Source: Paenibacillus sp. IHBB 10380
GTDB lineage: Bacteria; Bacillota; Bacilli; Paenibacillales; Paenibacillaceae
Assembly (NCBI RefSeq): GCF_000949425.1
Contig: NZ_CP010976.1
Span: 3,348,001 to 3,412,000 of the forward strand
Direction of reading: 5' to 3'
Length of the DNA: 64,000 bases
The notes under the pieces were generated by a model. The model saw only the letters and a list, made by a program, of their open reading frames with translations. It did no database searches and had not been told where the DNA came from. The stretch's first letter is position 1. Every line of letters begins with the position of its first letter. The translations under genes and the position numbers were made by a program. Shown one piece after another: positions 7,961-21,681 of the stretch.

Positions 7961-8150
7961 TAAAAATAAAGCAGAAATTTGGCTAACTTCTTAGTGCTTG
8001 CCGCTGGATGCTTCAAAAATGTGCCTCCAATCCAGCTGATCTCCATAACATCTCGGCTGCGTTGACAGACGTTGTTCGAACTGCAAACTGCCTTAATGTT
8101 TGCGCTGGCCTTACACAGTCATCTATGAGCTTTCTGTTCAAACAAAAGAA

Positions 8151-11686: not shown

Positions 11687-11717
11687 ATAGGCCGGGAGAT
11701 GCTTGCTCCCGGCCTAT
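11687..11717 (-). terminator. bidirectional terminator between EamA gene and polysaccharide operon
   Basis: ATAGGCCGGGAG and CTCCCGGCCTAT form a perfect 12-bp stem around ATGCTTG. The minus-strand tail ATTCTTTG and plus-strand tail CATCTCTT are both pyrimidine-rich, so it may stop transcripts from both convergent sides. Confidence 0.75.
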
Positions 11718-11803: not shown

Positions 11804-12892
11804 CTATTGATTCAATTCTTGAATCGTTAACTGCCCAAGTTCGCCCAGCCTCCATATTGCAATTTTGTAGTATCCCCTTTGCCGTAAAGTACTCATCCAC
11901 TGGGATATTGTCACATCGTCGGCATACCACACGGTATGCCTCACATGGTTATCATCGATATAGTCGAAGTACATACTGCCACTTGCGTTATCTCGCTTGG
12001 GAGAACTCACACTCTGAAGAGATAATTCCGCTGCCCGTTTCTCTGTCACTGCGGTCACCTTACCCTGCTCTGCCCAATCAAATCCTCCTGCTGATAACGC
12101 AATAATATTCTCTCCAGGCAACCGATCCATTCTCTTTGCCAGCTTGGTAATGAAGGCCAGATCTGCTTTGGGTCCTGGACCACTGTGAGTGCCGTATAGA
12201 TTGTATGCCATCATAACGTAAGCTGGGCCTTCCGGCAGCTGCAATTTCTCAATGGGCATCCTTGATTCCAGCACGATTCTAAGCGATTTGCCCATCGCAT
12301 GCAGTCTTTGGTACAACTCTCTATAAAAGGCGCAGACATGATCCCAATCGCTATCCTTGATTTTCTCGTAATCAATTTCTACACCGTGAAAGTCATATTT
12401 CGTTACCGCAGCCAATATCTCTTCTATATGCTTTTCTCGGCTTTTGTCTGTGGACATAAGCCTTGTAATCATGTCCGAATCCTTCTGTACCTCGGTTCCA
12501 TCCTTCTTTATAAGGTCATTTACCAATGTCAGATCCACTTCTGTTAAGCCAGATTGTTTCGCAGTCTCAAATATCCGTGGCAGTGCTTCTTGCATTTGTT
12601 CCGTATAATACAGACTATCGCTTTCATCGAAATAAGCTGCGAATACTTGGAAACTAGTAAGACCCTTCGAAATTTCCCGAAGATCTTCAATACTAGATTT
12701 CCACTGCCAGTCTACAACCCAGGCCGATAATTCCAGACTCGGCTCTACCCGAACCAACTTCTTTTCTTCGTGGGATCGGCCTTCGCATCCCATATACATG
12801 GCAGTTATACCTATGATAATCGTGATCGTTACAACAACTCGCCATTTACCTGTCACCTTGAACACCTTGGGTCCTTCCCCTTTACTCACCAT
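11804..12892 (-). CDS. GH18-like glycoside hydrolase, membrane/lipid anchored
   Basis: A protein of up to 362 residues with a positively charged N-terminus, one hydrophobic segment ending MYMGC, and an external TIM-barrel of glycoside hydrolase family 18. The active-site strand reads DFHGVEIDYE (about 167-176), keeping the last Asp and the catalytic Glu of the family. MMAYNLYG and LSAGGFDW are the usual product-side strands. GH18 enzymes cut beta-1,4-linked N-acetylhexosamine chains. The ATG directly abuts the upstream stop (TAAATG). A GTG at 12863-12865 behind GGGGAAGGA may be the true start. It is the last gene of the polysaccharide operon and probably trims or releases the polymer. Confidence 0.78.
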   Translation of the reverse strand: MVSKGEGPKVFKVTGKWRVVVTITIIIGITAMYMGCEGRSHEEKKLVRVEPSLELSAWVVDWQWKSSIEDLREISKGLTSFQVFAAYFDESDSLYYTEQMQEALPRIFETAKQSGLTEVDLTLVNDLIKKDGTEVQKDSDMITRLMSTDKSREKHIEEILAAVTKYDFHGVEIDYEKIKDSDWDHVCAFYRELYQRLHAMGKSLRIVLESRMPIEKLQLPEGPAYVMMAYNLYGTHSGPGPKADLAFITKLAKRMDRLPGENIIALSAGGFDWAEQGKVTAVTEKRAAELSLQSVSSPKRDNASGSMYFDYIDDNHVRHTVWYADDVTISQWMSTLRQRGYYKIAIWRLGELGQLTIQELNQ

Positions 12893-14656
12893 TTAGAAGC
12901 TTTCAATCGCCCAATCAATGGAAGTACTAATTGCTTTTTGTATTTGGGTTACTACTCCTTTGAAGCCTTTAGACTTACTACTGAACAATACAGATGATTG
13001 ACTGTCTTTTTGGTTTAAAGACTCTATTCTCAAATCGCCAAACACCCCATCGTATATATCATCTTTCTTATTCTGAGGGTTATATTCGGATTCGAGCACC
13101 ACACCACCTGTATTGACCGCACTGTCGATATTCACTTCCGTGAGCAATTCCTGATCTACCTTTAATTTCAACTGATTTCCTTGAACGGTGAGTTCAAGAT
13201 TCCTCGTCTGCTTATTATTGACTGGGTACTCCGTTTCGGTAGATAAGGCCCCTTCCGCTGTCTGCTCCTTCGTATACACCGTAGCCTTATCGAAGGCAAG
13301 ATCCTCCGAACGCCATTGAACAGCATCCAATGTACGGGTGAAAATTTGCTCGACTGTGTGCCCCTGCTTCTTCTGATCCACCTGAATCACGTTATTATCC
13401 AACGAAACACGGAGATAGGAATCCTTCTCTTCGTTATAACGAACATATACCGTCTGTTTACCTACAACATTCCCGGTGAGCTTCGTGCTCAGCTTCATAT
13501 CCGTATAATGGCTACTGCCATTCAAGTAAATCTTCCCTGCCCCAGCGGAAGGAGAAGTGAGTGCAATGCGGTCTTCTACGAACTCAGCTGCTCCGCTGAT
13601 GGTTTTCCACTGCTCGGCACGCTTTGCATCGCCGTGAATAAACTGCATACTCTGCTTGCTATCCTTGCCAATCTTCATCAACAGGTGATTAGTGTACCAG
13701 TAAGGCTCCGGCTGAACCCTCGTCAGATCATATAGATTCTGTGTACTGTCATTATACACATGTCCTTCCCGGTTAAAATGCATTTTGAACAGACGCTGGA
13801 TATTAGCATCGTTGGCATCGGACACTAACCGGTTCATCCCCTCATATAGGGTATTAGCATGCATAATCATATACACATTCGGTACAAAGCCCAAAGTATC
13901 TGTATAGATGTCTCTCATTTGCTTGTAATCCCCGTTGATACGGGATTCCATCTCATTGCGGTCTTCCAGCGGAATCATGTTCTCATCACGAATGAAGTCC
14001 ATCAAATAATGATTATAATACTCCACGTTCTCCTTATTACGTAATTGATTCTCACTCTTCATTCCAATAAAGCGGCCCTCTTTATCAAAGATATTAATAT
14101 ACGTCAGACGATAACCATTGGAACCGAGCTCCCAGTATCCCGTCTTCATCATCTTTAGCATGTCTTTGGGCTGTAGAAATTTCCGATCACTATTTCCCAT
14201 TTTATTGGCATAAGAGAGGAAGGTTGCCTTGAAGTTGTATCTCTCCAGAAGGGGCTGCGCAAATAAGCTGGAGTCGTTACGCCCATCCTCAAAGGATAGA
14301 AACAGCGCTTTATCAGGCAGAGCCTTCCCTTTCTGATAGAAATCCATAATATCTTGCTGCGATATCGTCGTATATCCTTGATCATACAACGCCTTCAGCT
14401 GCTGATTTAGTTGCTTCTTCGCCACCAATTTCGGAGTTCCAGAGCGATCTACGCCAAAATAAGATAAGGCGATGAATCCCTTGTCATTGGCCCACGTCGA
14501 CTTAACCGGTTCGTCATAATGCCTTACATTAAATATCACTTGAAACAAAAATATACCCACAGTTAGCAAAATCGCAGCTTGTATAATGGTCTTTATAAAT
14601 TTCTTGCGATCTTTGCGGTGATAATCAAGGGTAGAACTTCGCCTTCCCTTTATCAT
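12893..14656 (-). CDS. membrane NodB-fold pseudo-deacetylase with C-terminal beta domain
   Basis: A 587-residue membrane-anchored protein: one transmembrane helix (about 26-43), then a polysaccharide-deacetylase-like (NodB) domain, then a beta-rich C-terminal region (about 330-560) resembling a carbohydrate-binding jelly roll. The catalytic motif is altered: SFEDGR (121-126) replaces TFDDG, and ELGSNGYRL (176-184) stands where the two zinc-binding histidines are expected. It is therefore probably not a working deacetylase and may bind the polymer instead. The ATG at 14654-14656 with GAGGGTGG ahead is preferred to the GTG five codons earlier. It lies between the synthase and GH18 genes in the operon. 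Confidence 0.72.
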   Translation of the reverse strand: MIKGRRSSTLDYHRKDRKKFIKTIIQAAILLTVGIFLFQVIFNVRHYDEPVKSTWANDKGFIALSYFGVDRSGTPKLVAKKQLNQQLKALYDQGYTTISQQDIMDFYQKGKALPDKALFLSFEDGRNDSSLFAQPLLERYNFKATFLSYANKMGNSDRKFLQPKDMLKMMKTGYWELGSNGYRLTYINIFDKEGRFIGMKSENQLRNKENVEYYNHYLMDFIRDENMIPLEDRNEMESRINGDYKQMRDIYTDTLGFVPNVYMIMHANTLYEGMNRLVSDANDANIQRLFKMHFNREGHVYNDSTQNLYDLTRVQPEPYWYTNHLLMKIGKDSKQSMQFIHGDAKRAEQWKTISGAAEFVEDRIALTSPSAGAGKIYLNGSSHYTDMKLSTKLTGNVVGKQTVYVRYNEEKDSYLRVSLDNNVIQVDQKKQGHTVEQIFTRTLDAVQWRSEDLAFDKATVYTKEQTAEGALSTETEYPVNNKQTRNLELTVQGNQLKLKVDQELLTEVNIDSAVNTGGVVLESEYNPQNKKDDIYDGVFGDLRIESLNQKDSQSSVLFSSKSKGFKGVVTQIQKAISTSIDWAIESF

Positions 14657-14695
14657 TTCTGCCACCCTCACTCTTTATATTCTTCGATAATGGAC

Positions 14696-16558
14696 TTAGA
14701 AAGGTAGTCCGAATTTTTTTTTTTTTTTCTTTCTTGCCTCTTTTTTATTTCTGGCTTCGACATCCTGAGGTGTTTCTCTCGTTCCCCAAGTCGATTTCCA
14801 GAAGGTCACCCAGGCGACAGGCATTTGCCATAACAGCACAAATTCATAGAAAATACAGAATACAAGTCCAAAAATCCATAGTTTACTTTTACGTAACAGA
14901 AGATGTGCGAGGCTCATAAGCATCGCCATCAGAAATAATCCCATTAGGAAAGTACCTGGAAAGACATGATGCACGAGCGGAACATATATCAAATTGTATA
15001 GCACGATGACAGGCGCAGCGATCGGCACAATCAGACCAATATAGAAGAATAGAGTCATGAAGGGTTCTTTGCGCCAGATAAAACCTCCGGCTCTGAGCGA
15101 TTCCCGGAGCCATGATCGTTTCCATCTCATTTGTTGTTTCAAGAAAATCCCCATATCTGAAGGAACAATGGTCGAGCAGATCGCCCTATCCTGATAACCG
15201 GTTCGATGAGTTTTCAATATAAAATTCGTCATGCTCCGGTCATCACCAAAGGTAGCAGGTTGTCCCAGAAACTTCTGATTGAGCCAGGCTTCAGAATGCT
15301 TCACAATTAGTTCCTTTCGATAGCAGGATAGAGGCCCCGATAAGCAGGTTACGCTATCGAACCATGATTCAGCCGCTTTCATGATACGAAAAGCAATATA
15401 ATATCTGACGGTCTGCAGCTTGGTCACCGAGTTGGTATATTTGTTCTCCACATCCGTTCGACCGGCAACACCGCCCATACGGGGGTCCTGAAAGGGCTGA
15501 ACCAGATGCTTAATCGCTAATGGGTCTAGGAAACTATCGGAATCCACGAACACAACCAGATCATGCTTAGCCATTTCTACACCCTTAACCAGAGCTACCC
15601 GTTTTCCCCCATTTTCCGTCAAAACGTGCATTCTCAAGCGTTCTTTAGTCATATATCGATCTGCTTCTCTATGAATCATATCGATTGTCTTGTGTATCTG
15701 CTCCACGGATCTGTCTGTTGAACGGTCATCAACAACGATAACCTCCAGTTTATCAATCGGATAATCCTGATTCATACAACTTAATATCGTGCGGTGTATC
15801 CATTCCTCCTCATTGAAGCAAGGAATAATAATCGATACCCCCGGCATATAATCAGCATTGATTGGTACATCACGGTACAAAGCTCCGAATAAATAGCGTG
15901 TTAGCAGAAAAGCCGCGGCCGTAAGGCTGTATAAATACAGCAACAGATTATATTTAAAATAAATAATACTCTCCACACGCATTAGCATAATGAAGATAAC
16001 AGCTACAAACAGCAAACCACTGGCTGTATAAACTGAATAACCCCAGCGTTTCCTCTGAAAATAGTCCGTCAAAGGTTTTACAAATTCAAACGCAATCATA
16101 TGCTTCTCTTGTTTCTCCGTCTGCTGCTTAAATATGCGAATTATCACCGCATCCGTCTTTACCCTCGACTCAAAGCCTTCAGGCATCGTACCTGGGGGAA
16201 TATCGAATCGAATCGACACGGTATCTTCGACCTTGAAGTGATCTATTTCATCATGAAGTTCAACTAATACCCCTGTAGAAGAAACATCCACGGCCCGCGC
16301 CTTTATACCAGCTTTACTCTTCTGACCCTTCGCAACAATCAGAACCTCAAAGTCTGCCGTATATCTTAAGCTAAGCATACGCAACTTACTGCGATACTCG
16401 GAATCCATTTCTGCATCAACCGTTATATCATTCTGTATTCCTCTACGATCAAGCGTTACCCTGATATTCTCAGGATCGGGTACATTGGATAATGTACGTC
16501 TATCTGACCGTGGAGAAGTTAGTACCTCATCAATCCTTTTCCTTTTTCTTCTTATCAC
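14696..16558 (-). CDS. PilZ domain-family 2 glycosyltransferase fusion (polysaccharide synthase)
   Basis: A 620-residue processive glycosyltransferase with an N-terminal c-di-GMP receptor domain. PilZ motifs are complete: RSKLR at 56-60 and DVSSTG at 91-96. Two membrane helices follow (about 176-225), then a GT-A domain with VSIIIPCFNE (241-250), VVDDRSTD, DSD (339-341), GDD (438-440) and QQMRW (475-479), the QxxRW of chitin, hyaluronan and cellulose synthases. More membrane helices close the protein. Unlike BcsA the PilZ domain is N-terminal. The start is GTG with GGAGA upstream. The last codons lie in a run of 15 A residues encoding six lysines. It is the core of the operon and should build and extrude the polymer. 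Confidence 0.88.
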   Translation of the reverse strand: MIRRKRKRIDEVLTSPRSDRRTLSNVPDPENIRVTLDRRGIQNDITVDAEMDSEYRSKLRMLSLRYTADFEVLIVAKGQKSKAGIKARAVDVSSTGVLVELHDEIDHFKVEDTVSIRFDIPPGTMPEGFESRVKTDAVIIRIFKQQTEKQEKHMIAFEFVKPLTDYFQRKRWGYSVYTASGLLFVAVIFIMLMRVESIIYFKYNLLLYLYSLTAAAFLLTRYLFGALYRDVPINADYMPGVSIIIPCFNEEEWIHRTILSCMNQDYPIDKLEVIVVDDRSTDRSVEQIHKTIDMIHREADRYMTKERLRMHVLTENGGKRVALVKGVEMAKHDLVVFVDSDSFLDPLAIKHLVQPFQDPRMGGVAGRTDVENKYTNSVTKLQTVRYYIAFRIMKAAESWFDSVTCLSGPLSCYRKELIVKHSEAWLNQKFLGQPATFGDDRSMTNFILKTHRTGYQDRAICSTIVPSDMGIFLKQQMRWKRSWLRESLRAGGFIWRKEPFMTLFFYIGLIVPIAAPVIVLYNLIYVPLVHHVFPGTFLMGLFLMAMLMSLAHLLLRKSKLWIFGLVFCIFYEFVLLWQMPVAWVTFWKSTWGTRETPQDVEARNKKEARKKKKKKFGLPF

Positions 16559-16582
16559 GGTTGTGATTCTCCAATCTATTCA

Positions 16583-17908
16583 TTATAGCCTCCAGTAATG
16601 ATACCCACGGCTCTCATAGTCGGCCTTGTTATAAACTCCCTTTATATCTACCAACACCTTCGGTTGGTGGATACTGTACATTTGGTCAATTTCCTGGAAG
16701 CTCATTTGAGCGATTGATTGATGCGGGACGGCGACAATCAGAACGTTCAATTGATTCAAATCAGACGGCTCGGACAGTTTAAGCCTATACTCCGAATAAA
16801 CCTGCTCTTTATCAACTAATGGATCTACTATGATAGGTTGAATGCCATACTCCTGAAGCTCATCGATAATATCGATAACCTTCGTATTACGAGTATCCGA
16901 ACTGTCCTCTTTATAGGACAAGCCCAACAATCCAATCCTCACATCGATTAAATCTAGCCTCATATGGACCAGTATTTTAATAATATACTGTGCAATATAT
17001 TTACCCATTCCATCGTTAATATGGCGGCCTGCAAGAATAATCTGTGAGTGATAACCTATATCCTCAGCTTTGTACGTTAAATAATATGGATCAATACCGA
17101 TACAATGCCCCCCCACAAGACCAGGAGAAAAGTTAAGGAAATTCCACTTGGTGCCAGCAGCCTGAAGAACCTCTTTCGTGTCGATTTTCATCCGATTGAA
17201 CAACATCGACAGCTCGTTCATGAAGGCGATGTTAATGTCCCTCTGCGCATTCTCGATGACTTTCGCTGCCTCCGCTACTTTAATACTCTCTGCTCGGTAT
17301 ACACCAGCTTCGATGACAAGCTCGTACACATTTGCTATCGTTTCCAGCGCATCCTTATCGATACCGGAAACGATTTTAACGATGTTCTCCAGTCGATGAA
17401 CCGTATCACCCGGATTAATTCGTTCAGGAGAATACCCAACCTTAAAGTCATCGCCACAGCGTAGGCCCGATTCCGCCTCCAGAATAGGAATGCATACTTC
17501 CTCCGTCACCCCTGGATAGACCGTCGATTCGAACACAACGATAGCACCCTTCGTCAATTTTTTAGCGACAATTTGACTGGCACTTTGAACATATTTCAGG
17601 TCCGGCACATTCCCGCTTTGGACGGGTGTGGGAACCGCTATAATGAAGAATTTCACTCCACTCAATTGCTCTATATCCGAAGTAAAGTCTACGGAGCAAT
17701 TCTTGATTTCTCCATCTTCCATCTCACCCGTTGCATCGATACCGCTGCGGTATCCATTTACCTTCTGTACATTCACATCAAACCCGATCACGTTAACCTT
17801 TTTCGAAAAGGCAACAGCTATGGGGAGACCCACATATCCAAGACCAACGACAGCCAAAGGCGCTTGCCGATTAACAATTCCCTCATACGTTTCTGACTTA
17901 GTTCTCAT
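16583..17908 (-). CDS. UDP-N-acetylhexosamine 6-dehydrogenase (TviB/WbpO-like)
   Basis: A 441-residue NAD-dependent nucleotide-sugar dehydrogenase that oxidises the C6 hydroxyl of a UDP-N-acetylhexosamine to the uronic acid. The Rossmann motif GLGYVGLP (22-29), IIAVPTPV, the central helix and the catalytic cysteine in GGHCIGIDPYYLTYKA (Cys 269) are intact, and SYKEDSSDTRN begins the C-terminal domain. The sequence looks closer to Vi-antigen TviB and WbpO than to UDP-glucose dehydrogenases, so UDP-GlcNAc or UDP-GalNAc is the likelier substrate. The ATG at 17906-17908 fits the GGAG spacing better than the TTG three codons earlier. It would feed the PilZ-GT2 synthase next to it. Confidence 0.88.
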   Translation of the reverse strand: MRTKSETYEGIVNRQAPLAVVGLGYVGLPIAVAFSKKVNVIGFDVNVQKVNGYRSGIDATGEMEDGEIKNCSVDFTSDIEQLSGVKFFIIAVPTPVQSGNVPDLKYVQSASQIVAKKLTKGAIVVFESTVYPGVTEEVCIPILEAESGLRCGDDFKVGYSPERINPGDTVHRLENIVKIVSGIDKDALETIANVYELVIEAGVYRAESIKVAEAAKVIENAQRDINIAFMNELSMLFNRMKIDTKEVLQAAGTKWNFLNFSPGLVGGHCIGIDPYYLTYKAEDIGYHSQIILAGRHINDGMGKYIAQYIIKILVHMRLDLIDVRIGLLGLSYKEDSSDTRNTKVIDIIDELQEYGIQPIIVDPLVDKEQVYSEYRLKLSEPSDLNQLNVLIVAVPHQSIAQMSFQEIDQMYSIHQPKVLVDIKGVYNKADYESRGYHYWRL

Positions 17909-17929
17909 GTCACCCAACTCCAGTTTCTA

Positions 17930-19387
17930 TCATTTTTGACTGATCATATCTGTCATGGTTACAAAGGTAAATCCTTTACGTTCCAAGCTTTCAATCGCAA
18001 TTGGCAGTGCCTCAATCGTCTGGATATCATCTAACATGTGCAGCAAAATAACACTCCCGCTACGGGTCTGCCCCAGAATCCCCTTCACAATATCATCTGC
18101 AGACTTGTTCTTATTCCAGTCGTTAGGGTCTACATCATAATTCGCAATCGTCTCATACCCAGTAGCGGCTATAATTCCTGCCTCTGTGTCATTAATATTG
18201 CCGGTTGGAGGTCTGAACAGCATCGCCGGTTTCTCCTGAATGGCCTCCGTAATGACCTGGTAAGCTTTCACGACCTCCTCCTGCAATTGGGTTGGAGTTA
18301 TCGTTGATAACACGGGATGGCTGTACGTATGATTGCCCACATCATGTCCCGCTTCTGCAATCGCTCTTGCCAGATTGGGATTCTTCTCCACTCCATCTGC
18401 CCGCAGGAAGAAGGATGCCTTAATATGATACTTGTCCAAAATATCCAGAATTTTGGTTATTGTATAATCCGTTCCCCAGTCATCAAAAGTGAGTACCACT
18501 TTCTTCTTCGATGTCTCTTTTCTATAAATCAAATCATACTTAGCTTTGTTATTCGGGTTGATCTGGACTGTATCATAACCCTCTATGGCCTCTAACGGTT
18601 TTCTCTCCCCGCCTTGCTCTACAAGCTTGTTCAGCGTAACAAATTCGTAGCCTACATCAGCAGCGGCCTCAGCAATAAGCGGAATCGTCTTCAGAATATG
18701 CGTGTTTTCCTCTATATCCAGTGTAATGATTCCACCGCGATTGATATATTTTCGCAGATAATTCTTCTTCTGCTGCTCGGTTTCGTTCTGCCAATTGTGA
18801 AGAAATAAACTATAAGAAATAACAGCGTCCTGCCCATTGTGTGCCGCCGCTAGGCGTACATCATCGGTAAATTCACCGGATTTGGTTCTGACATACTTAG
18901 GGGTTACGCCTGTTTCCTTTGTAATAATCTGGTCGCTCAGTTGAATTTCCTTATACACTTGATCATATCTGAGCTTGCTCATATCAAGTTGATTCAAGGT
19001 GTTATTCTCAATCTCATGACCTCGAGCAAGGATGTCTTGGGCGATATCAGGCTCTTCTGCTACTCTCATTCCTGGAAGAAAGAAGGTCGCCTTAATATGA
19101 TAGAGATCCAACTCATCTAACAGCTGATTCATCGTCTTGGCATCCCCCATCCCGTTAAAAGTAAGCGCTAATGTCCGTTTAGTGGTATACACGAAGGAAA
19201 TAGCCTTGCTCTTCTCGCCCGTATAGCGTGAGACCGGTTGCTCCGCACTTTTCTTACCTTCCATGTTCTTAGCGGAATCATCGCTGCCTCCAAATATTCC
19301 GCAGCCGGCAAGAAATGTCAGTGCCAGTAGCACAACTACTATTGGGATGAAATGTCGTTTGGGGATTGCCTCTTTACCTACTCTCAT
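17930..19387 (-). CDS. lipoprotein with two NodB deacetylase domains, second one active
   Basis: A 485-residue lipoprotein (lipobox LAGC, Cys 29) anchored outside the membrane. It carries two tandem polysaccharide-deacetylase domains. The first (about 70-255) is degenerate: TFNGMG and ENNTLNQLD replace the metal-binding motifs. The second (about 295-480) is complete: TFDD (300-303), NHTYSH (352-357) and RPPTG near 400. It should remove N-acetyl groups from an extracellular amino-sugar polymer. AAGAAGGAG precedes the ATG. It is the first gene of the operon, 21 bases ahead of the dehydrogenase gene, and is transcribed from the repeat-containing promoter upstream. Confidence 0.88.
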   Translation of the reverse strand: MRVGKEAIPKRHFIPIVVVLLALTFLAGCGIFGGSDDSAKNMEGKKSAEQPVSRYTGEKSKAISFVYTTKRTLALTFNGMGDAKTMNQLLDELDLYHIKATFFLPGMRVAEEPDIAQDILARGHEIENNTLNQLDMSKLRYDQVYKEIQLSDQIITKETGVTPKYVRTKSGEFTDDVRLAAAHNGQDAVISYSLFLHNWQNETEQQKKNYLRKYINRGGIITLDIEENTHILKTIPLIAEAAADVGYEFVTLNKLVEQGGERKPLEAIEGYDTVQINPNNKAKYDLIYRKETSKKKVVLTFDDWGTDYTITKILDILDKYHIKASFFLRADGVEKNPNLARAIAEAGHDVGNHTYSHPVLSTITPTQLQEEVVKAYQVITEAIQEKPAMLFRPPTGNINDTEAGIIAATGYETIANYDVDPNDWNKNKSADDIVKGILGQTRSGSVILLHMLDDIQTIEALPIAIESLERKGFTFVTMTDMISQK

Positions 19388-19892: not shown

Positions 19893-21065
19893 TTAACTGC
19901 TACTCGGCAGAACGTCCGAATTCACAAGCGGTTCCCGGCTAGGAGTAGCTTTCCTTGCTTCCTGTAGTACCAGCAATCCAATTAACAAGGACACAACACC
20001 AATAATGATCAGCAGTGCCCCTATCTCCTGACTATAGGCTGTTAGCGCCCCATCCCGAAAAGCCATCCCGCGTATAAGGCGGTTAAGCCAGTTCATAGGT
20101 AATACCCATGCAGAGATTTGAAAGGGCTCCGGAAACGCTAGCGGAGTCAGTTGAATTCCAGTAGCAAGAAACGACGGATACAATACGAAGTTGGTCCGTG
20201 AATTGACTTTGGACAGGTCTTTGGCAGAATAACCGATCAACAATCCCATGAGTGACAAGGCAAAAGCATAAACAAGCAGTGGGATGATAAAAAGATAAGG
20301 CTCCGCTTCAAACCGCATTCCTCCCACCTGCTTTAATAATCCATAGCATAGGAGCAGAGAAAGGGAAGTCATGACAGCGTAAGGTACAATACGAATCCAA
20401 AGCTGCACAGGCGACTTTCCATTTGCAAAGAGCTTCCCTTCCTGACGCAGGCGAGGTACAATCGAGCCTGCTGCGCTTGTTGTAATCATCAAAACCACGA
20501 TATTCACAAATCCAAGCACCATAAAGCCTACATAACTTGTGGTCGGATTAAACAGCATCCGCTGCTGAAGGGACAACGGAGAAACAAGCCCTTTAGATGT
20601 TTCGGCATCCATCCCTTTTTGAAGCAGACGGGTCATTGAGAGGGTCATATTTTCCGTTACGATGATTTCCTGAATCGCAGTCCGGATACCAGTCAACCCT
20701 GAGGGCATCGTGTTATCCATTAAGATGCCGATATTCGTTGATATCCCCTGCTGCTGACGTATCTCCAACTGTTTCGGAAGCATGATGACCGCTACAGCTT
20801 GCTCATTTGCCAGCAATGTTTCTGGGGCCATACGGCTGGAGTACACGTTTGTGACATTCATGTATGGGGAAGCATTTATTTTAGAGATCAGCTGCCGTGA
20901 ATACAGACTGTGATCCTCATCAATGACAACAACTGGCGATTCGCTAATTTGGTTCTGCGAAAACATCAAACCAAAAAATATGGCCGCGACAAGCGGACCG
21001 ATAAAGATCAAGCGAAAATATTTGCTGCCCGCTACGTACTTCCACTCGTCAATCAGCGAATTCAT
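19893..21065 (-). CDS. ABC-2 type transporter permease (YhhJ/YbhR-like)
   Basis: A 390-residue membrane protein with one N-terminal helix (about 17-38), a large external domain (about 40-170) and five or six C-terminal helices. SQNQISESPVVVIDEDHSLYSRQLISKI and the later FNPTTSYVGFMVLGFVNI are typical of ABC-2 exporter permeases. The ATG at 21063-21065 follows GGAGGTGA by six bases and overlaps the end of the HlyD-like gene by 17 bases, so the two are translationally coupled. No ATPase gene is next to it, so the ATPase must come from elsewhere, or the set is incomplete. Substrate unknown. Confidence 0.85.
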   Translation of the reverse strand: MNSLIDEWKYVAGSKYFRLIFIGPLVAAIFFGLMFSQNQISESPVVVIDEDHSLYSRQLISKINASPYMNVTNVYSSRMAPETLLANEQAVAVIMLPKQLEIRQQQGISTNIGILMDNTMPSGLTGIRTAIQEIIVTENMTLSMTRLLQKGMDAETSKGLVSPLSLQQRMLFNPTTSYVGFMVLGFVNIVVLMITTSAAGSIVPRLRQEGKLFANGKSPVQLWIRIVPYAVMTSLSLLLCYGLLKQVGGMRFEAEPYLFIIPLLVYAFALSLMGLLIGYSAKDLSKVNSRTNFVLYPSFLATGIQLTPLAFPEPFQISAWVLPMNWLNRLIRGMAFRDGALTAYSQEIGALLIIIGVVSLLIGLLVLQEARKATPSREPLVNSDVLPSSS

Positions 21066-21681
21066 CAAGTCTCACCTCCGCTGTCATACCCGGAAGCAAA
21101 TCAGCATTCGAATCCATAGATATTCGAACAAGGAACATACTTAAATCCGCTTGTCCTCTTTCACGTGTCATACGCAAGTTGGCAAATTGAGGGGCAGCTG
21201 CAATCGAAGCGACAACACCATCGACCTGAACTAAACGATCCAAATACGGAAAATGAACATCAACACTTTGATTGACCTCAAGCTTATCAATTTCACTTTC
21301 CTGAATGTAGAGCTCTGTATAATAGGTATTCTTTTGCAGAATCACAACCGGCATACCTTGCAGCAGCTGATCCCCCGACTTTACAACAATCCTGTTGATC
21401 AATCCGTCATCCGGCGCGATTACATCCATTTCTCCTTCTTCAGCTGATTTAACCTTGAATAGCACCTCTCCCTGTTTCACAGAATCGCCTACATCCACAC
21501 TGACCTCTACAATCGACCCTGGACTCTTCTGATAAAATATTGTCGTTTGCTCCGCCTCAAGCATACCTTGCTTCCTGCTCTCAGCCTGACTGACAGCATC
21601 CTTTCCTTTAACAGCAAGAAGCGAACCTCCAACGATCAGCGCAATCGCAATCCCGATATAAAAACCTACTTTTATCTTCAT
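21049..21681 (-). CDS. HlyD-family membrane fusion/efflux adaptor-like protein
   Basis: A 210-residue protein with an N-terminal signal anchor (about 6-24) and a biotinyl-lipoyl-like barrel (SPGSIVEVSVDVGDSVKQGEVLF, about 53-75, and APDDGLINRIVVKSGDQL, about 88-105), followed by a beta-barrel domain. It is the periplasmic-adaptor type used in Gram-positives with ABC-2 exporters. GGGAGAG precedes the ATG. It sits between the lipoamide dehydrogenase and the permease, with a 17-base overlap with the latter. It lacks the long coiled coil of Gram-negative adaptors. Role: linking the permease to export across the wall, by inference. Confidence 0.83.
   Translation of the reverse strand: MKIKVGFYIGIAIALIVGGSLLAVKGKDAVSQAESRKQGMLEAEQTTIFYQKSPGSIVEVSVDVGDSVKQGEVLFKVKSAEEGEMDVIAPDDGLINRIVVKSGDQLLQGMPVVILQKNTYYTELYIQESEIDKLEVNQSVDVHFPYLDRLVQVDGVVASIAAAPQFANLRMTRERGQADLSMFLVRISMDSNADLLPGMTAEVRLDEFAD

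Follow-up and report, generated by a model that had tools for sequence, protein, structure and literature searches.

An operon of Bacillota encoding a hyaluronan-synthase-like enzyme with an N-terminal PilZ part, and its predicted role in exopolysaccharide synthesis

The window analysed here is a stretch of 64,000 nucleotides from the 5.79-Mb genome of Paenibacillus sp. IHBB 10380 (contig NZ_CP010976.1, positions 3,348,001 to 3,412,000 of the forward strand), and the subject of this report is a five-gene operon that runs from position 19387 to 11804 on its minus strand. The genes encode a lipoprotein with two NodB domains (NodB2), a sugar-nucleotide dehydrogenase (UGD), a family 2 glycosyltransferase with a PilZ part at its N-terminus (PilZ-GT2), a pseudo-deacetylase (pNodB) and a GH18-family protein. 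Gene content, gene order, conservation, the state of the motifs and the predicted folds are matters of observation. On balance, they point to a synthase-dependent exopolysaccharide system contained in one operon, in which an enzyme resembling hyaluronan synthase (HAS) and responsive to cyclic di-GMP (c-di-GMP) would make a partly deacetylated aminouronate polymer. Several families of Bacillota have this operon with its unusual synthase. A first reading of this DNA, made from the letters alone (the original prediction), had proposed a Gram-positive, c-di-GMP-activated system for a uronate-containing polymer, and that interpretation is half right.

A conserved five-gene operon

The five-gene operon is real. 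Five open reading frames (ORFs) on the same strand stand side by side in the ORF list, where the original prediction had placed them, and Pfam and NCBIfam back the assignments:

17930..19387, minus strand: NodB2, 485 amino acids; lipoprotein with an LAGC lipobox (from the sequence) and two NodB domains; ORF with PF01522 matched in two stretches
16583..17917, minus strand: UGD, 444 amino acids; TviB-like nucleotide-sugar 6-dehydrogenase with GGHCIGIDP, assigned by NCBIfam, motif conservation and PDB relatives
14696..16558, minus strand: PilZ-GT2, 620 amino acids; membrane processive glycosyltransferase, PilZ part N-terminal
12893..14671, minus strand: pNodB, 592 amino acids; pseudo-deacetylase; a helix at the N-terminus is its probable anchor, and the C-terminal domain is lectin-like
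11804..12892, minus strand: GH18-family protein, 362 amino acids; PF00704 at 42.2 bits
19740..19765, minus strand: upstream terminator-like hairpin, belonging to the preceding gene; 10 pairs, then a T-rich tail; upstream limit of the operon
11687..11717, strand not assigned: downstream terminator-like hairpin; 12 pairs, 8 of them G-C, from a scan that scored the plus strand only

Because hairpins stand at both ends (19765-19740 and 11717-11687), the five genes are read as one operon. The symmetrical stem of the downstream hairpin also lies 3' of the operon on the minus strand, with the tail TTCTTTG.

Conservation was followed in the best 80 of 288 loci by GT2 similarity, so that the counts hold for close relatives. 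The GT2 and pNodB genes are adjacent in all 80, and the full gene order of the window recurs in 55, which is more than chance would give. Five of these 55 loci carry one or two additional tandem copies of NodB2 before UGD (L032, L047, L048, L058 and L072). UGD lies within the block in 75 of the 80 loci; it is ahead of NodB2 in 12, downstream in one and absent from the block in five (a contig end truncates one of these five). The block includes GH18 in 74/80.

A hyaluronan-synthase-like core

The GT2 was aligned over 103 rows (the window plus L004-L105), of which 17 duplicate another row and 86 are distinct. Two of its features carry the assignment:

15059..15847, minus strand: GT-A core, residues 238-500, with GGKR, DSD, GDDR and QQMRW
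14777..14788, minus strand: WGTR gating-loop motif of HAS type, residues 591-594

The class I HAS motifs DxD, GDDR, QxxRW and WGTS/R are present, each position being kept in 102 or 103 of the 103 rows (M477 in 101); where the lone exceptions are shown, they are letters of one degenerate locus (L126/L025). R385, GDDR and WGTR side with HAS and not with NodC: the two NodC proteins compared have GEDR, WLSR and, where R385 stands, a Glu, and the NodC equivalog scores 187.9 bits, under its cut-off of 550. The nearest predicted fold is likewise that of HAS, in a comparison occupied by GT2 residues 172-594, so that the PilZ part stands outside it. Of the residues that contact GlcNAc and glucuronic acid (GlcA) in XlHAS1, as given in PMC11750622, R287, Y288, F292, C307, W382 and S385 are matched and R296 is replaced by Lys (positions assigned by counting, the chain numbering being offset by 13). 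By its motifs and its modelled fold, the GT2 is thus hyaluronan-synthase-like and nearest HAS rather than BcsA, Alg8 lying outside the direct comparison. A BcsA-type synthase as nearest relative was rejected, since the discriminating residues and the predicted fold favour HAS.

An operon relative in genome G077 (L126:7155-11703) has open frames and a synthase that lacks DSD, QxxRW and WGTR and sits on a very long tree branch (1.88). Its NodB2 has only 270 amino acids, with the pseudo-domain motif alone, and the stretch has no UGD or GH18 match; it retains R33, R38, R39, R65, DxSxxG and a full-length pNodB. This locus could be a case of decay or a non-synthetic derivative.

The dehydrogenase and the nature of the polymer

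The remaining genes were aligned from the window plus L026-L105, less proteins under length limits, giving 76 rows for UGD and GH18, 77 for NodB2 and 80 for pNodB. UGD belongs to the Pfam domain family UDPG_MGDP_dh and exceeds the cut-off of NDP-sugDHase (TIGR03026; 375.3 bits against 189.8). C272, the Cys of GGHC, is present in 76/76. The original prediction had called it a TviB/WbpO-like dehydrogenase, and TviB, a UDP-GlcNAc 6-dehydrogenase, is indeed the best NCBIfam equivalog, at 443.1 bits, under the cut-off of 592; the models for UDP-glucose dehydrogenases fall far below it (TuaD 105.9, AglM 139.7 bits). The proposed uronate supply stands as to the presence of a sugar-nucleotide dehydrogenase but needs one correction: because UGD scores as a UDP-N-acetylhexosamine (UDP-HexNAc) type, an amino-uronate is probably what it supplies.

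These scores bear directly on the idea of a true hyaluronan-type system, in which UGD would oxidise UDP-glucose and the product would be built of GlcA and GlcNAc. The strong HAS similarity of the synthase speaks for it, and homologues are called 'hyaluronan synthase' in some sources; the gap between TviB and the two UDP-glucose models, however, makes it improbable. So do replacements of the dehydrogenase. Twelve Lysinibacillus and Metasolibacillus loci have another dehydrogenase, 32-37% identical, in UGD's place, and the two that were typed (L095 and L089) prefer models of UDP-N-acetylmannosamine dehydrogenase (UDP-ManNAc-DH) over TuaD. That the substitute is again of this type suggests that the synthase needs a UDP-HexNAc-uronate.

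A second alternative dispenses with the uronate in the backbone: the product would be a homopolymer of N-acetylglucosamine (GlcNAc), either chitin-like or similar to poly-N-acetylglucosamine (PNAG), and UGD would serve another pathway or mere decoration. Polymers of GlcNAc are the usual substrates of GH18 and NodB proteins; the top NCBIfam models are NodC and PgaC/IcaA for the GT2 and PgaB/IcaB for pNodB, and five loci have no UGD in the block. However, four of those five genomes have a relative of UGD elsewhere at 56-60% (one partial), the fifth having one at 33% only, with the GGHC motif, and in the other 75 loci the gene is in the block. The discriminating positions also favour HAS over the two NodC and one PgaC compared. 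Moreover, among three PilZ-free GT2 relatives, L123 and L124 adjoin genes like those of HexNAc-type dehydrogenases, and L125 does not. We regard the homopolymer as a minority possibility, to be taken more seriously than the hyaluronan-type one. The PilZ-free pairs themselves (L123:6345-9048 and L124:7311-10319) may represent a broader clade of aminouronate synthases.

A non-canonical PilZ site

The PilZ part and the segment before it are laid out as follows:

16064..16366, minus strand: PilZ domain, approximately residues 65-165; R65 and DxSxxG invariant
16271..16288, minus strand: DVSSTG motif, residues 91-96
16439..16510, minus strand: conserved Arg-rich N-terminal segment, residues 17-40; consensus PRxDRRxLSNVPDPExIRxxxDRRG

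The protein matches the PilZ model weakly. The genome search gives 22.9 bits, barely past the cut-off of 22.5, and the whole-protein scan 19.1 bits, below it; both alignments begin at model position 7-8. A PDB sequence search with a 114-residue piece containing the PilZ part gave no matches.

The original prediction saw an intact c-di-GMP site formed by RSKLR and DVSSTG. The second half of that claim stands, since D91, S93 and G96 are each present in 103/103 rows, giving the (D/N)xSxxG of canonical c-di-GMP-binding PilZ domains. The first half does not: R56 is Arg in 5/103 rows and R60 in 67/103, and RSKLR was rejected as the arginine motif. The arginine at canonical spacing is R65, invariant in 103/103. 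In L001, the other PilZ protein encoded by this genome, RRTFLR ends in an Arg that precedes an Ile by 7 residues and the Asp of DVSGGG by 23. For R65 the distances are 7 to V72 and 26 to D91, and for R60 they are 12 and 31. Position 61, four before R65, where the canonical first arginine would stand, is Arg in one row, Lys in four and neither in 98 (5 of these being gaps), and the RxxxR that opens canonical c-di-GMP-binding domains is lacking.

For the structure alignments, two subsets of the homologues were picked by hand, A1 with 55 rows and A2 with 42; A1 omits L117 (one stop reported) and L116 (taken as the same contig as L073). In A1, D91 becomes N, a letter the motif permits, in 1/55, and position 61, Met in the window, is Arg in 2/55 and Lys in 7/55. 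The predicted c-di-GMP site is thus non-canonical, not intact, because RSKLR is not conserved and the canonical first arginine is gone, though R65 and DxSxxG are invariant.

Upstream of the domain, R33, R38 and R39 are present in 103/103 rows, R20 and R21 in 55/55 of A1, and the linker from this Arg-rich segment to R65 varies in length. R33, R38 and R39 may supply the contacts lost with the first arginine. Residues 36-52 of the predicted GT2 model have a predicted local distance difference test (pLDDT) score below 50, which puts this split-site idea beyond the reach of the model.

The PilZ part could instead be structural or a site of protein docking and not bind c-di-GMP, the synthase being constitutive or otherwise controlled. 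A precedent exists in RiGT2 of Romboutsia ilealis, also a Firmicutes GT2 with a PilZ domain, for which PMC10374906 reports that PilZ is required for activity and that no c-di-GMP binding was found; RiGT2 differs in that its PilZ is C-terminal, with full RxxxR and NxSxxG, and its product is a mixed-linkage glucan. Non-binding PilZ domains are also described in the review PMC10333796. This precedent and the missing first arginine, like the NodC- and PgaB-type model scores and the loci lacking UGD, weigh against the system proposed above. In favour of binding stand the seven invariant residues R33, R38, R39, R65, D91, S93 and G96; between residues 65 and 165, only 10 of 101 columns are invariant (102 rows, degenerate L025 excluded), and R65, D91, S93 and G96 are among them. 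GGDEF proteins occur in 33/33 genomes checked, which is weak support for c-di-GMP control because these include the three with a PilZ-free GT2. A PilZ part that does not bind the ligand seems a doubtful but serious alternative to c-di-GMP control.

Deacetylase-like and hydrolase-like proteins

The original prediction of a double-NodB lipoprotein and of two catalytically dead NodB domains in the operon has held. Four domains are relevant:

18608..19210, minus strand: N-terminal pseudo-NodB domain of NodB2, approximately residues 60-260 (limits estimated); TFNG for TFDD, metal histidines absent
17948..18520, minus strand: C-terminal NodB domain of NodB2, approximately residues 290-480; full catalytic set
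13658..14497, minus strand: PgaB/IcaB-fold domain of pNodB; metal histidines absent, own invariant residue set
13010..13615, minus strand: CBM66-like concanavalin-fold domain of pNodB

In the N-terminal domain of NodB2, N78 is kept in 72/77 proteins and N128 in 70/77. The C-terminal domain has D302 and D303 in 76/77 and H353, H357, R392, D423 and H450 in 77/77, which make up the CE4/NodB motif set of Asp base, metal Asp-His-His, Arg, Asp and His. pNodB has the PgaB/IcaB fold and lacks the metal histidines: N185 occupies the first site in 79/80, and at the second, L189 (80/80) and T, S or A at 190 (78/80) leave no His at either possible spacing. In L103 (2195-3863, a contig of a metagenome-assembled genome) pNodB lies in two overlapping frames, a sequencing error or a real break. 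Many Foldseek matches of pNodB, among them receptor-binding parts of toxins, are to unrelated proteins of lectin fold and were set aside, only the concanavalin fold being in common.

The GH18 protein is over the PF00704 cut-off. E172, D174 and E176, the ExDxE with the catalytic Glu at E176, are present in 76/76; relative to DxxDxDxE, the second Asp has become Glu (E172), and the first varies, being Asp in 24/76 and His in the window.

A proposed mechanism

The sugars, their linkage, the binding and effect of c-di-GMP and the roles of the pseudo-enzymes are what we infer from this evidence. UGD would oxidise a UDP-HexNAc, probably UDP-GlcNAc, to a UDP-aminouronate, and PilZ-GT2 would join HexNAc and HexNAc-uronate alternately, the chain passing through a membrane channel within the synthase itself. 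The PilZ part at the N-terminus would gate the synthase on c-di-GMP through a site formed by R65 and the DxSxxG loop, probably together with the invariant arginines further upstream. On the outer side of the membrane, the C-terminal domain of NodB2 would strip some acetyl groups and so leave charges of both signs on the chain; pNodB/CBM66, the anchored protein, would hold or guide the chain, and GH18 would cut, trim or release it.

We offer only tentatively, and with well under even confidence, the most specific form of this scheme: a c-di-GMP-gated HAS relative that makes a zwitterionic 'aminohyaluronan' of alternating HexNAc and HexNAc-uronate, partly deacetylated. Its PilZ site would be split, with arginines of a conserved DRR-containing segment about 26 residues upstream, beyond a linker of variable length, standing in for the first arginine, and the two fixed pseudo-deacetylase domains of the operon would guide the chain.

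Comparison with known systems

The present enzyme shares with class I HAS (CvHAS, XlHAS1) the GT-A core with GDDR, QxxRW and WGTR, basic residues at the two uronate-contact positions and the nearest predicted fold. It differs in its N-terminal PilZ part and in a partner dehydrogenase of HexNAc type by score rather than UDP-glucose type, and its operon adds a deacetylase, a pseudo-deacetylase and a GH18 protein. The PNAG systems (PgaBCD and IcaABD) likewise pair a processive GT2 with a PgaB-fold protein, and the E. coli PNAG synthase is under c-di-GMP control according to PMC4125290. Here, however, the metal histidines are missing from the PgaB-like domain, the hydrolase is encoded separately as a GH18 protein, the operon includes a dehydrogenase, and PilZ stands in place of the PgaCD sites.

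BcsA also carries GT2 and PilZ on a single chain, but PilZ is N-terminal here (about residues 65-165 of 620) rather than C-terminal, its arginine pair is non-canonical, and by Pfam none of the five operon genes is BcsB-like. The alginate system, with its Alg8, Alg44, AlgD and AlgE, is similar in combining a PilZ part, a GT2 and a sugar dehydrogenase and, in LpxC-positive Bacillota, a putative outer-membrane barrel; it differs in that PilZ is fused to the synthase here, the dehydrogenase is of another class, and NodB and GH18 genes replace those for epimerase, acetylation and lyase. Vi antigen shares the TviB-like dehydrogenase, but none of the five genes is an epimerase and the synthase is HAS-like. 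The operon's content supports the earlier claim of a synthase-dependent polysaccharide operon with PilZ on a processive GT2. Among the matches listed from open-licence PubMed Central papers there was no characterisation of the operon; subscription papers lay outside that search, and such an absence is not proof.

Distribution and surroundings

The closest named GT2 relatives are those of Paenibacillus macquariensis (91%) and P. antarcticus (89%). The spread is patchy: the operon is present in 23 of 148 genomes of the family, its own included; 14 of 14 other same-genus genomes among those listed lack it, and 105 further genomes are also without a match. Across the phylum sample a near full-length protein occurs in 8 of 398 genomes, again counting its own, and three more have a PilZ-free GT2 at 38-40%. 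Among 72,556 plasmid records, just one, from an 897-kb plasmid of P. cellulositrophicus, aligns with the greater part of the query. The GT2 tree mixes genera, Paenibacillus taking 9 changes, of which the starred branches force just 3. This pattern suggests a history of loss and transfer.

The system had been thought Gram-positive, but the gene set is also found in three LpxC-bearing genomes (G175, G288 and G318), together with a barrel-like protein of 546-603 amino acids, whose gene precedes UGD in two of them and closely follows it in the third. G423 has a similar protein of 521 amino acids ahead of UGD, although LpxC was not found there.

L120:2840-4480, L121:3412-5118, L122:3268-5079 and L118:13282-14847: putative outer-membrane barrel genes, in or before the block

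The four proteins have signal-like N-termini, common stretches (GNxYDSxFxG-like and HxMxG) and aromatic-rich final strands, with an exact C-terminal Phe in two; no Pfam family is above cut-off. From these features they look like outer-membrane barrels. In one LpxC-positive genome a GH114-like protein is encoded just upstream of the block (L120:368-1381, E 1.2e-15); GH114 is a polygalactosaminidase family.

Upstream of the operon in the window, genes for an ABC-2 permease and an HlyD-like protein lie on the same strand (19893-21681), separated from it by a terminator-like hairpin; neither has a match in L026-L105 (flanks up to 8 kb). No riboswitch was found between window positions 8000 and 24000 at Rfam gathering thresholds, and a SAM riboswitch was the only one among the 8 loci given out of the 80. 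A promoter scan stayed near the shuffled level (22 against a mean of 18.2, standard deviation 4.3) and carries no weight here.

Implications

If the proposed reading is true, a synthase-dependent matrix polysaccharide system would be added across several families of Bacillota, and the mechanism of hyaluronan synthase would be tied to c-di-GMP control. The PilZ part would then also probe how much of the arginine motif ligand binding requires. The fixed non-catalytic NodB domains provide a clean case in which to ask what role pseudo-deacetylases have in polymer secretion, and the LpxC-positive relatives with their putative barrel would allow one cassette to be compared between one-membrane and two-membrane cells.
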